NCBI RefSeq assembly: GCF_000744285.1
Contig: NZ_JQLQ01000002.1
Span: 124,001-188,000, forward strand
Length of the DNA stretch: 64,000 bases
Direction: 5' to 3'
Source of the DNA: Carnobacterium pleistocenium FTR1
GTDB taxonomy: Bacteria; Bacillota; Bacilli; Lactobacillales; Carnobacteriaceae
In this document: positions 57,330-63,324 of the stretch, piece by piece
How the letters are laid out: each line of letters starts with the position of its first letter
How positions within the stretch are numbered: position 1 is the first letter of the stretch
The notes under the pieces: model-generated
What the model saw: the letters and a program-made list of their open reading frames with translations, nothing else
Told to the model about the DNA's origin: nothing
The model's database searches: none
Program-made: the position numbers and the translations under genes

Positions 57330-58037
57330 CTATTTTGAAGTACTTCCTTGAAGGAAAAATTGTGAATGTTCATAATTGTAAATGGTTTTAGAAAAATCAA
57401 AAGGTTCGCCAGTATTCAAATAAAATAATTCTTCTACGAATAAGGCTGGTGATTTATTAGGAAGTTGCAATTGAGCGGCTAATTCGGTATTGATTTTTCC
57501 AACTTTTAAATACTTATCAGAAAAACCAATATTAATATTTAACGCAGTTTGCAAGTATTCAAAAATAGAATCATTTGCGATCTCTTTATTCAGATAAGGG
57601 ACAATTTCTTTTTTGTAAAATGATTCTTCAACACATAACGTTTGCCCGTTAACGTAGCGGATTCTTTTTACTCGATATACTTCATCGGTAGATAAGCAGT
57701 TTAAATTATTCATGATCTCTTCATTTGGATAAATGATTTCTAAGTTTAAAACAGTGGAAGTCAAATGGAATTCTTCTAAGTCACGTGTGAAACCTTGATT
57801 TTCCATAAAACTAATGTAGCCTTTTCTTTTTCTTTGTCTAACAAAAATCCCACTTCCTTGAACTTGAAAAATAATACCCCGATTTTCTAAAATAGCTAAA
57901 GATTTTATAATAGTACTCTTACTTACTTGATAATGAGTAATTAATTCTCCCAAACTAGGTAATCGACTTCCTTGTTCTAAATTTTCAAGATGGATTTTTT
58001 CTTCGATTTTTAAAGCTATTTCTTGGTATTTAAGCAT
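57330..58037 (-). CDS. GntR-family regulator with UTRA domain
   Basis: This 235-residue regulator has a GntR winged-helix N-terminus (LEQGSRLPSLGELITHYQVS, KSTIIKSLAILENRG) and a UTRA effector domain (about 85-230, with TVLNLEIIYP and CVEESFYKKE). UTRA regulators of this type sense phosphorylated sugars. It is divergent from the beta-glucoside operon and a palindrome in that operon's promoter is a probable operator. Start at 58037 has GGAG 6 bases upstream, favoured over 58049. Confidence 0.92.
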   Translation of the reverse strand: MLKYQEIALKIEEKIHLENLEQGSRLPSLGELITHYQVSKSTIIKSLAILENRGIIFQVQGSGIFVRQRKRKGYISFMENQGFTRDLEEFHLTSTVLNLEIIYPNEEIMNNLNCLSTDEVYRVKRIRYVNGQTLCVEESFYKKEIVPYLNKEIANDSIFEYLQTALNINIGFSDKYLKVGKINTELAAQLQLPNKSPALFVEELFYLNTGEPFDFSKTIYNYEHSQFFLQGSTSK

Positions 58038-58118
58038 AGTTATCTCCACATCTTTTCATAGTTATATTTCTAGTATAACTTATAATATGTATCTGTGCAC
58101 ATTTTTTTTGTTCGTGTG

Positions 58119-58147
58119 TTGACAAATTGTACATATACAATTACAAT
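58119..58147 (+). promoter_or_regulatory. Promoter and operator of the beta-glucoside operon
   Basis: TTGACA (58119-58124) and TACAAT (58142-58147) are 17 bases apart. The spacer holds a perfect palindrome AATTGTA, CATA, TACAATT at 58125-58142, the likely GntR site, whose occupancy would block RNA polymerase. Confidence 0.8.
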
Positions 58148-58194
58148 GTTAGGGTACAAGGTCGCAATCGAAGACATAACTAAGGAGTGGGAAT

Positions 58195-60066
58195 ATGACA
58201 AGCAAAGTAAGAGATTATGAAAAACTCTCAAAAGAAATATTGAAAGCGGTTAACGGGAAAGAGAATATTGCTGGGGTAACTAGATGTGCTACACGGTTGC
58301 GCCTTGTATTAAAGCAAACTCCACAAGATGCTAAAGCTACTATTTCAGAAATGCCCGGTGTAATTACAGTAGTAGAAAATAGTGGTCAATTTCAAATAGT
58401 TATTGGTACACACGTTGGGGATGTATATGATGAGTTTGCTGAACTTGTCGGTATAGACGAAGCCGAAGTTGTCGAAGCTCCCAAAACAAGTATTCTAAAT
58501 CGAATTATTGCAACTATGTCAGCCGTATTCGCACCCTTTATTTATATCTTAGCCGCTGCAGGTATTCTACAAGGTATGCTCATATTAGTAAATTTAGCTT
58601 TTCCAAGTTTTGCTGCTACAGGAACTGCGCAAGTTTTTAGTTTTATTTCTTGGGCACCATTTACCTTTTTACCAATTTTTATAGCGATTACTGCATCAAA
58701 GCATTTTAAATCAAATATGTATATAGCAGTAGCTTGTTGTGCCGCATTGGTATCACCTACATGGGCAGAATTAGCATCTCAAATTGCTAGTGGGACACCA
58801 ATTTCATTTTTAACCATTCCTTTATCTCAAACAATTTACACGTCTTCTGTTTTACCGCCACTTCTTCTAGTTTGGTTTTTATCTTATTTCGAACGATTTA
58901 TTGAAAAAAGAATACCAGAAGTCATTAAGCCATTATTGGTTCCATTATTAAGTTTAGTCATTATGGTTCCGTTAACAATTATTTTAATTGGACCTGCTTC
59001 ATCTCTAGCAGCACAAACTATTGCAAATGGTTATAATTTCCTTGCTGAGTATGCTCCTCCGTTGGCTGGTTTAATCATTGGTGGATTTTGGCAAGTGTTA
59101 GTTATTTTCGGAGTCCACTGGGGAATTACTCCCGTAGTTTTAGAAAACTTTAATATCTACGGCCGAGATTCTTTTCAAGCTTTTCAAACAATTGCTGTAA
59201 TTTCACAAGTTGGTGCTGTATTAGGTGTATTTTTGAAAACGAAAAATAAAGAATTAAAAGGAATTTCCTTATCTGCATTTGTTACAGGGATTTTTGGAAT
59301 TACTGAACCAGCTATTTATGGTGTTACTCTACGTTTCAAAAAACCGTTTATATACGGATGTATTTCTGGAGCAGTTGGAGGAGTTGTAGCAAGTTTCTTT
59401 AACCCTTATTACTATGCTTACGCAGGTTTGCCTGGATTACTAACCATTGTTAATGGAATTAGTTCTGAAAATCCAAGTTCATTTATTGGAATCGTTATTG
59501 GTTCTTTGATCGGTATTATTGGACCAATCATTTTGATTCAAATTTTTGGATTTGGTGAAAAGAGTAAAAGTGATGAATTAAAAGAAAGTAATCCAGTTTC
59601 TAAACTATTAAACTCTGAAGTTTTTAGCCCACTTAAAGGAAAAATTATGCCATTATCTGAAGTTTCAGATGAAGTATTTGCTTCTGGAGCAATGGGAAAA
59701 GGCGTAGCCATTGAACCAACAGATAATAAAGTCTATGCTCCTTTTGACGGTACTGTTGAAGTATTGGTAGATTCAAAACATGCTATTGGTTTGAGATCCG
59801 ATGATGGAATAGAGTTGTTGATCCATGTTGGTTTAGATACGGTGAAAATGAACGGTCAAAACTTTGATTATGCAGTAAAATCAAATCAAAAGGTGAAAAA
59901 GGGTGATCTATTGCTCACATTTGACATGGATGCTATTAGAGATGAAGGATTTTCATTAGTTACTATGGTCGTCATTACCAACTCTAATGAGTATGAGAAT
60001 ATTTCAATAGCAACAAATCCAGACTCAATTAGTAATGAACCAATTCTAGCATTGTATAATGCTTAA
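58195..60066 (+). CDS. PTS beta-glucoside-specific EIIBCA permease
   Basis: This 623-residue protein takes up and phosphorylates beta-glucosides. The EIIB domain is at 1-90 with phosphorylated Cys31 in VTRCATRLR. EIIC runs about 100-450 (PFIYILAAAGILQGMLIL, HWGITPVVLENFNIYGRDSF, ITEPAIYGV). EIIA is about 480-620 with active His544 in LLIHVGLDTV. This B-C-A order matches BglF/BglP. GGAG 6 bases before the ATG. It is followed 26 bases later by the glucosidase gene. The exact glucoside (salicin, cellobiose, arbutin) is not determined. Confidence 0.94.
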   Translation: MTSKVRDYEKLSKEILKAVNGKENIAGVTRCATRLRLVLKQTPQDAKATISEMPGVITVVENSGQFQIVIGTHVGDVYDEFAELVGIDEAEVVEAPKTSILNRIIATMSAVFAPFIYILAAAGILQGMLILVNLAFPSFAATGTAQVFSFISWAPFTFLPIFIAITASKHFKSNMYIAVACCAALVSPTWAELASQIASGTPISFLTIPLSQTIYTSSVLPPLLLVWFLSYFERFIEKRIPEVIKPLLVPLLSLVIMVPLTIILIGPASSLAAQTIANGYNFLAEYAPPLAGLIIGGFWQVLVIFGVHWGITPVVLENFNIYGRDSFQAFQTIAVISQVGAVLGVFLKTKNKELKGISLSAFVTGIFGITEPAIYGVTLRFKKPFIYGCISGAVGGVVASFFNPYYYAYAGLPGLLTIVNGISSENPSSFIGIVIGSLIGIIGPIILIQIFGFGEKSKSDELKESNPVSKLLNSEVFSPLKGKIMPLSEVSDEVFASGAMGKGVAIEPTDNKVYAPFDGTVEVLVDSKHAIGLRSDDGIELLIHVGLDTVKMNGQNFDYAVKSNQKVKKGDLLLTFDMDAIRDEGFSLVTMVVITNSNEYENISIATNPDSISNEPILALYNA

Positions 60067-60089
60067 AATAGAAACTTAGGAGGAAATAA

Positions 60090-61553
<1,464 letters not shown>

Positions 61554-61638: not shown

Positions 61639-61681
61639 AATAAAAGCAGCTTCCTGTAATAAACAGGAAGCTGCTTTTATT
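61639..61681. terminator. Perfect bidirectional hairpin
   Basis: AATAAAAGCAGCTTCCTGT and its perfect complement around AATAA, 19 bp. It lies between the convergent bgl operon and glpK-like gene and is probably the terminator of the latter. Confidence 0.85.
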
Positions 61682-61818: not shown

Positions 61819-63324
61819 TTAGTTATGTAGCAATTTAGCATAATAACGAATCGCTTCGATAGCGCTATGCCAAGCATGCAGCTTATCTTGCCGCTCATTA
61901 ATAGTCATATGGGGTTCAAATTGTTCATCCGCAGACACTAAAGCGGTTAGCTCATCTTGATTGCGCCAATAATCAACCGCTAATCCAGCGAGGTATGCAG
62001 CCCCTAGTCCGGTTGTCTCTAAACGTTCAATACGTTTAACAGTTTTCCCAAGAATATCTGCTTGAAATTGGATTAACAGATTATTTTGTGCGGCTCCGCC
62101 ATCGACATGAAGAATATCTACGTCGATACCAGTATCTAATTCCATTAATTCGATGATGTCACTGACTTGATAAGCAAGGGACTCTAAAGTTGCTCGAACA
62201 ACTTCCCGATGGCTTGTAGATTCATCAATTCCTAGAATAGCTCCTCTTACGCTTGAATCCCAATAGGGCGAACCAATTCCTCGAAAGGCAGGTACAACAT
62301 AAACGCCCGAATTCGTCGCTGCTTCAAGGGCCAATAACTCTGAATCATCCATCGATTCAAATAAGTTTAAGCCGTCTTTTAACCATTCAATTGCACTACC
62401 TGAAATAAGAGCCGAACCTTCAAGAGCGTAGGTTATTTTGTTATCAAATGAGTATCCGATTGTAGTGAGTAATTTGTGTTCAGATAGTTTTGGTTCAGAA
62501 CCGGTATTCATCACGATAAAGGTTCCTTGACCATAAGTGCTTTTTACTTGTCCAGATCGAAAAGCTAATTGACCAAATAACGCGGCCTGTTGGTTTCCGG
62601 CAACGCCAGCAATTGGAATGTTTGCTCCATCAAACAAATCTAAATCGGTTGTTCCATAAAGATGAGAGCTTGGGTAAACTTTAGGTAGCATGCTCTCAGG
62701 GATGTTAAATAGATTAAGTAACTGTTGATCCCATTCCAGCGTATGGATATTGAACAACATTGTTCGTGAAGCATTTGTATGATCGGTGCAGTGCAACTTG
62801 CCATTGGTCAGATTCCAAATGAGCCAACTATCAACTGTACCAAAGGCTAACTCTCCGCGATCTGCTCTTTCTTGTGCACCAGGATGGTGATCTAGGATCC
62901 AACGAATTTTACTAGCAGAAAAATAAGGACTCAAAACTAAACCGGTCTTTTCGTGGATAGAGGCTTCGACGTTTTCTTGTTTAAGCTGATTAACAATAGC
63001 TAATGATTGATTGGAACTCCAGACAATTGCATTGTAGATAGGCTGACCAGTTTTACGATCCCACACAATAGTTGTTTCGCGTTGATTTGTAATGCCCAGT
63101 GCTTTGATCTGATTGAATGAGACCCCGGAATGTTTGATAACTTTAAGAAAGACATCACGGACGGACTGCCAAATAGCGTTTGGATCTTGTTCGACCCAGC
63201 CGGACTGTGGGATCTTCTGTTCAAAAGTTTGAGCTGCTGTGCTTATGTAATTTCCTTGACGATCAATAATAATTGCGCGTGTTGTGGTTGTCCCTTGGTC
63301 AATTGCTAAAATATATTCTGCCAT
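61819..63324 (-). CDS. Divergent glycerol kinase paralogue with altered active site
   Basis: This 501-residue protein has the full FGGY fold and GlpK features: LAIDQGTTTTRAIIID, LGITNQRETTIVWD (Arg82, Glu83), SPYFSASKIRWILD, and FRGIGSPYWDSSVRGAILG. Yet the catalytic base motif is AGVAGNQQAALFG: Asn244 replaces the Asp seen in known glycerol kinases. TYGQGTF replaces TYGTGCF, and VWSSNQSL replaces the usual WQ-RRT. The His loop phosphorylated by the PTS in enterococcal GlpK is also absent. It may act on another polyol, bind a ligand, or be inactive. It is directly downstream of a DhaS-like regulator, with a cre site upstream. Confidence 0.88.
   Translation of the reverse strand: MAEYILAIDQGTTTTRAIIIDRQGNYISTAAQTFEQKIPQSGWVEQDPNAIWQSVRDVFLKVIKHSGVSFNQIKALGITNQRETTIVWDRKTGQPIYNAIVWSSNQSLAIVNQLKQENVEASIHEKTGLVLSPYFSASKIRWILDHHPGAQERADRGELAFGTVDSWLIWNLTNGKLHCTDHTNASRTMLFNIHTLEWDQQLLNLFNIPESMLPKVYPSSHLYGTTDLDLFDGANIPIAGVAGNQQAALFGQLAFRSGQVKSTYGQGTFIVMNTGSEPKLSEHKLLTTIGYSFDNKITYALEGSALISGSAIEWLKDGLNLFESMDDSELLALEAATNSGVYVVPAFRGIGSPYWDSSVRGAILGIDESTSHREVVRATLESLAYQVSDIIELMELDTGIDVDILHVDGGAAQNNLLIQFQADILGKTVKRIERLETTGLGAAYLAGLAVDYWRNQDELTALVSADEQFEPHMTINERQDKLHAWHSAIEAIRYYAKLLHN

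Follow-up and report, generated by a model that had tools for sequence, protein, structure and literature searches.

A GlpK paralogue with altered catalytic residues accompanies DhaS in Lactobacillales: a possible glycerol sensor in the position of DhaQ

Introduction

The activator DhaS and its partner DhaQ are an unusual pair in that an inactive kinase paralogue serves to read out a TetR-type activator. DhaQ (TIGR02362; Lactococcus lactis) is an inactive paralogue of DhaK that binds dihydroxyacetone covalently and serves as the coactivator of DhaS. DhaS itself (PDB 2iu5, 4mk6) is matched by TIGR02366, the profile for the transcriptional activator of dihydroxyacetone kinase. On the DNA, the Lactococcus protein reportedly protects GGACACAT-N6-ATTTGTCC.

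Glycerol kinase (GlpK) acts as an oligomer. Its signature residues include Arg83, Glu84, Tyr135, Asp245 and Phe270 (PMC3245297); residue numbers of the E. coli protein are counted here without Met. A glycerol kinase is also listed in the 17-gene operon converting glycerol to 1,3-propanediol in Trichococcus ES5 and T. pasteurii, which is absent from eight Trichococcus species not using glycerol (PMC6950789).

Here, we focus on a GlpK paralogue of Carnobacterium, designated GlpK*, whose gene lies directly downstream of dhaS on the same strand in a 64-kb window, that is, the whole stretch of DNA analysed (Table 1).

Table 1. Positions of the genes, altered codons and inverted repeat in the window
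Feature	Position	Strand	Basis or remark
GlpK* gene, glycerol kinase paralogue, predicted pseudokinase, 501 aa	61819..63324	minus	ORF, profile match, predicted GlpK fold
Asn244 codon AAC, equivalent to E. coli Asp245 (catalytic base)	62593..62595	minus	plus-strand bases GTT
Gln266 codon CAA, equivalent to E. coli Thr267; phosphate-binding GTG changed to GQG	62527..62529	minus	loop reads YGQGTF
Glu313 codon GAA, equivalent to E. coli Gln314	62386..62388	minus	Glu/Asp in 17/17, Gln in 27/28 canonical GlpKs
Ser103-Ser104-Asn105, changed WQ-R segment (E. coli Gln104 and Arg106)	63010..63018	minus	alignment
DhaS-type TetR-family activator gene, 180 aa	63411..63953	minus	TIGR02366 match; start by orthologue alignment
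Inverted repeat AAAAGCAGCTTCCTGT..ACAGGAAGCTGCTTTT, likely terminator ending the dhaS-glpK* unit	61641..61680	no strand	inferred from sequence, unscored

Results

Altered and conserved residues of GlpK*

The GlpK* open reading frame is uninterrupted, begins with ATG and encodes a full-length paralogue of GlpK. Both FGGY domains were matched in Pfam, and the protein reaches 669.3 bits against the glycerol-kinase equivalog TIGR01311 of NCBIfam, above its cut-off of 590.35. There was no match to TIGR02362 (DhaQ), and the fold is not that of DhaK. An AlphaFold model, obtained with a shallow alignment (pLDDT 84.7), adopts the two-domain FGGY fold of GlpK; its top Foldseek matches are all GlpK, with a TM of 0.93, and the closest solved proteins are the Enterococcus casseliflavus GlpK structures. 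In fold, in length and with 56% identity, GlpK* resembles the enzymes of E. casseliflavus (3h3n, 3d7e) and E. coli (1glf). Judged from its sequence, it is a member of GlpK by score and fold that fails the catalytic-residue tests at Asp245 and Thr267.

A preliminary description had read Asn at the position of the catalytic Asp, a GQG in place of the GTG nucleotide loop and an altered WQ-R segment. All three readings hold, and they extend to the whole subfamily described below: Asn245 and Gln267 occur in 17/17 members, as opposed to Asp and Thr in 28/28 canonical GlpKs, and WQSRQS has become WSSNQS in the Carnobacterium protein, with Ser or Asn at position 104 and Asn or Ser at 106 in every member. 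A further fixed change was missed, namely Glu or Asp instead of Gln at position 314, which we take to be a nucleotide contact. The loop carrying the PTS-phosphorylated His, on the other hand, is not missing as had been claimed. Its length is unchanged, and the substitution affects the His alone, which is Leu, Ile or Arg in 17/17 members and is retained by 23/28 canonical GlpKs. R369E is one of several other fixed differences.

Unlike these positions, the glycerol contacts Arg83, Glu84, Trp103, Tyr135, Gln246 and Phe270 are unchanged in all 17, and the N-terminal phosphate loop (Asp10, Thr13, Arg17) is likewise shared with GlpK. With catalytic residues changed and glycerol contacts kept, the phosphotransfer site has been altered and the glycerol site retained. 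Asn is isosteric with Asp and, by inference, can still form a hydrogen bond with glycerol.

Distribution and selection

With a protein search threshold of E <= 1e-205, GlpK* was found in 17 of 395 Lactobacillales genomes, from 9 genera and three family groups. There is a clear gap between its members, at 70-94% identity (C. jeotgali MS3 being the 94% relative of the Carnobacterium studied here), and ordinary GlpKs at 57% or less. In a tree, the GlpK* proteins form a single clade with a support of 100 on a long stem. When 399 Bacilli genomes were scanned with a DNA pattern that would pick up every GlpK having Asn at 245, the only matches were the gene in the window and a chance one outside GlpK, and a protein search of 348 sampled Bacillota genomes did not find the group. 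From these two samples, GlpK* is apparently confined to Lactobacillales, a Listeria plasmid excepted. A sequencing or assembly error at the Asn codon was considered and rejected, since the same change recurs in every one of the 17 genomes.

The proteins are encoded by intact frames, and dN/dS between orthologues is mostly 0.05-0.12, indicating purifying selection; one near-identical pair gives 0.34, a value resting on very few changes. The view that the unusual residues do not reflect simple decay is thus borne out. A canonical GlpK is also present in 9/9 of the GlpK* genomes checked, and the Carnobacterium genome encodes another two GlpKs that have Asp at position 245 and Thr at 267.

The DhaS neighbour and the dha operon

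Rather than with glp genes, GlpK* is linked to dhaS. In all 17 genomes it follows a TIGR02366 match on the same strand at a distance of 40-112 nt, so that the AGxAGNQQ form, suggested earlier as a possible conserved subfamily next to dhaS, is indeed one. In the window, the gap is 86 nt if the dhaS start is set by orthologue alignment; the protein then likely begins with MNQQNTTKE, and the open frame reaches back to 63995. This DhaS scores 129.5 bits against a cut-off of 129, a margin of only 0.5 bits, and the GlpK*-linked orthologues range from 110 to 145 bits, some of them below the cut-off. They belong to the DhaS family and have the same operator architecture, but they form a clade of their own (support 100), again on a long stem; the stem lengths are 1.62 for the DhaS partners and 1.36 for GlpK*. 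Two single clades on long stems are what would be expected after one partner switch.

At nearly all intact loci, gldA-dhaK-dhaL-dhaM is divergent from dhaS-glpK*, and a gene for an iron alcohol dehydrogenase sometimes comes after it. One locus (G352) extends to a second dhaK-dhaL, dehydratase subunits, a reactivating factor, a cobalamin adenosyltransferase-like gene and a glycerol facilitator; these late genes were named from their sequences and a published list, and dehydratase and reactivase at L039 were tested by Pfam. The order at G352 matches that of the Trichococcus operon: glycerol kinase, dihydroxyacetone activator, GldA and DhaKLM, continuing with propanediol dehydrogenase, DhaKL and dehydratase (PMC6950789). 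In the accessible part of that source, however, the kinase is listed as an ordinary glycerol kinase, and neither DhaQ nor the active site is mentioned (PMC6950789).

Several loci depart from this arrangement. On the Jeotgalibaca plasmid pMA1X17-3 (L110) and in G139 (L115), insertions part dhaS-glpK* from gldA-dhaKLM; the operator described below remains beside gldA at L115, and no match to it is left at L110. A remnant (L128, G281:C1:1938000-1949000) has a DhaS with an internal TAG, GlpK* in three fragments and a broken GldA, with the operator still recognisable; here the dhaS-glpK*-gldA module is decaying as a unit. Downstream of GlpK* in the window, a convergent cassette of a GntR/UTRA regulator, a PTS permease and a 6-phospho-beta-glucosidase occupies 57330-61553. 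As it is absent from the other GlpK* loci, it looks like a chance neighbourhood.

DhaQ and GlpK* at DhaS loci

To call DhaQ, we relied on a residue signature, because the TIGR02362 cut-off is passed by a true DhaK of the Carnobacterium genome (at L116) and so over-calls DhaQ. Four positions separate the two proteins without overlap: DhaQ reads PFSR (38 sequences) and DhaK reads SYAG (55, plus three second DhaKs). His56, Asp109 and His218 are kept in both according to the alignment; in DhaQ, the ligand-binding His and Asp residues are retained in 38/38 sequences, with divergence elsewhere. This pattern of a kept ligand site with changes elsewhere is common to DhaQ and GlpK*, although for the latter the loss of activity is only inferred. 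The second DhaK proteins at L041, L111 and L175 were considered as DhaQ and rejected, as they carry the SYAG of DhaK.

When 73 DhaS genes were read with their surroundings, 37 were accompanied by a second DhaK-like protein, DhaQ, and 19 by GlpK* (the 17 genomes, the Listeria plasmid and the broken remnant, hence 18 intact). Among the other DhaS loci that include dhaKLM, DhaQ is the neighbour in almost every case. No PFSR protein stood beside any GlpK*-linked DhaS in the loci read. G118 does have one, but it accompanies another DhaS roughly 11 kb off; both G011 and G118 carry the two systems apart from each other, and each system has a DhaS to itself. In the Carnobacterium genome no DhaQ was found, only two copies of DhaK, both SYAG and each followed by DhaL and DhaM. 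DhaQ resembles GlpK* in its position beside DhaS, with the operator before dhaKLM, and in being a kinase derivative with its ligand-binding residues kept; it is found where GlpK* is absent. It differs in its DhaK-type fold, which is unrelated to GlpK*, and in its ligand, dihydroxyacetone, whereas the pocket of GlpK* fits glycerol.

In other genomes, three GlpK genes near dha loci keep D245 and T267, and two of these loci have DhaQ. The Carnobacterium genome has another dhaKLM with a canonical GlpK close by at L116 (G000:C2:2524258 and 2528515), without DhaS or operator. DhaS, dhaKLM and the operator occur with neither DhaQ nor GlpK* at L120 and L121 (G309, G357). These two loci, together with the non-dha loci mentioned below, show that not every member of the DhaS family comes with a recognisable protein coactivator.

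Operator and promoter

The loci read were searched for the pattern GGACA-N12-TGTC[CT] and its complement. This gave 64 sites, compared with 1.2 expected in shuffled sequence, usually one per locus and before the dha operon; the operator is present in 16/18 intact GlpK* loci and 34/37 DhaQ loci. The GlpK*-linked DhaS loci mostly have the variant GGACA-N12-TGTCT. The pattern does not occur within the window. In the Carnobacterium genome the operator GGACAAAGAGAATCTTTTGTCT is located at G000:C2:188036-188057, 36 bases beyond the right window end, and is followed by TTGAAA, 17 bases and TAAGAT. These boxes, read from the sequence, are a possible promoter for gldA, and TGATAGCGCTTCCC between them may be cre-like, also an inference. 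An operator adjoining the -35 box fits an activator.

DhaS-family regulators without dhaKLM also have a GGACA-N12-TGTCC/T operator (L123, L129, L133, L134, L135, L170). It precedes a 213-aa NAD(P)-binding-like protein at L123 and a 590-aa protein at L134 and L135. The operator is therefore wider than the dha regulon.

Discussion

What does a glycerol kinase without its catalytic base do beside DhaS? A specialised or regulatory role had been suggested from the neighbouring regulator, and the gene linkage supports it, although there is no biochemistry and regulation itself is an inference. With the catalytic residue lost, the glycerol pocket kept and the position of DhaQ occupied, GlpK* is probably a glycerol sensor and not an enzyme. 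Our favoured reading, held with some reserve, is that of a glycerol-binding pseudokinase that acts in DhaQ's place as a ligand-sensing coactivator of DhaS. Glycerol would enter the conserved pocket (Arg83, Glu84, Trp103, Tyr135, Asn245, Gln246, Phe270) and, with the catalytic Asp being Asn and the phosphate-binding Thr being Gln, would stay unphosphorylated. The glycerol-bound protein would then bind or re-shape DhaS on the operator GGACAAAG-N6-TTTTGTCT beside the -35 box, and DhaS would activate gldA-dhaKLM, plus propanediol dehydrogenase and glycerol dehydratase where present. As an outcome, the glycerol dehydrogenase/Dha-kinase route, i.e., glycerol fermentation, would be switched on. The fixed catalytic change, the retained contacts, the purifying selection, the pairing with DhaS, the lack of an adjacent DhaQ and the conserved operator are observations; the absence of kinase activity, glycerol as the ligand, physical contact with DhaS and activation are inferred, without activity, binding or expression data. 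A bolder inference, which we regard as evenly balanced, is that a second, unrelated kinase fold was recruited to the same activator: an FGGY pseudokinase would have replaced the DhaK-derived DhaQ, and operons for glycerol fermentation would now be induced by glycerol instead of dihydroxyacetone.

Several weak points should be kept in mind. The single clade amounts to just one independent event; the DhaS relatives at L120, L121 and the non-dha loci have the operator without a recognisable coactivator; the DhaS of the window clears its profile cut-off only narrowly; co-location could mean mere co-regulation of an enzyme; and some kinases may stay partly active after a D-to-N change. It may be, then, that GlpK* still serves the dha operon as a kinase of glycerol, dihydroxyacetone or another polyol, with a modified phosphotransfer site and under the control of DhaS. 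The whole GlpK fold and length, the equivalog score, the strong purifying selection and the retained N-terminal phosphate loop would all suit such an enzyme. We nevertheless think it unlikely: D245N, T267Q and Q314E/D are all fixed, and activity is stated to have dropped strongly when the corresponding residues were mutated in glycerol and xylulose kinases of E. coli (PMC4880283). Moreover, GldA and DhaKLM are supplied by the operon in any case and a canonical GlpK by the genomes, and the missing DhaQ would be left unexplained.

The coexistence of canonical GlpK in the genomes checked, the oligomeric nature of the enzyme and fixed differences such as R369E would also allow GlpK* to be a dominant-negative or regulatory subunit, forming mixed oligomers with canonical GlpK and lowering glycerol-3-phosphate while the dehydrogenase/Dha-kinase route is on. 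This seems less likely still, as the linkage in 17/17 is to dhaS and not to glpK, the absence of DhaQ at these loci is again unaccounted for, and the interface region carries fixed changes that, by inference, would tend to disrupt mixed oligomers. As for a decaying paralogue that has lost catalysis and has no function, only the remnant in G281, broken in DhaS, GlpK* and GldA together, points that way; a gene with an unbroken frame in 17 genomes from 9 genera and on a Listeria plasmid, under purifying selection in all but one near-identical pair and with identical residue changes fixed everywhere, contradicts it so strongly that we give it hardly any credence. A coactivator role is thus the reading we retain: GlpK* most probably works like DhaQ without being one, as a kinase-derived DhaS coactivator on a different kinase fold. 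We found no paper on a catalytically inactive glycerol kinase as a regulator.

GlpK* is also carried by Listeria monocytogenes, on plasmid pCFSAN100569_02 (CP068981.1, L175). On this mobilizable plasmid, which comes from food, IS elements flank the complete GlpK*-DhaS-gldA-dhaKLM cassette, an arrangement that suggests transfer from Carnobacteriaceae-like hosts. On both this and the Jeotgalibaca plasmid, GlpK* is annotated as glycerol kinase GlpK. If our reading is true, the glycerol kinase annotations in such operons, those of the two plasmids included, are probably wrong, and GlpK* is a candidate natural glycerol biosensor. It would also follow that DhaS can work with sensors that differ in fold, and that metabolite sensors have arisen more than once from kinases whose activity was lost and whose pocket was kept.
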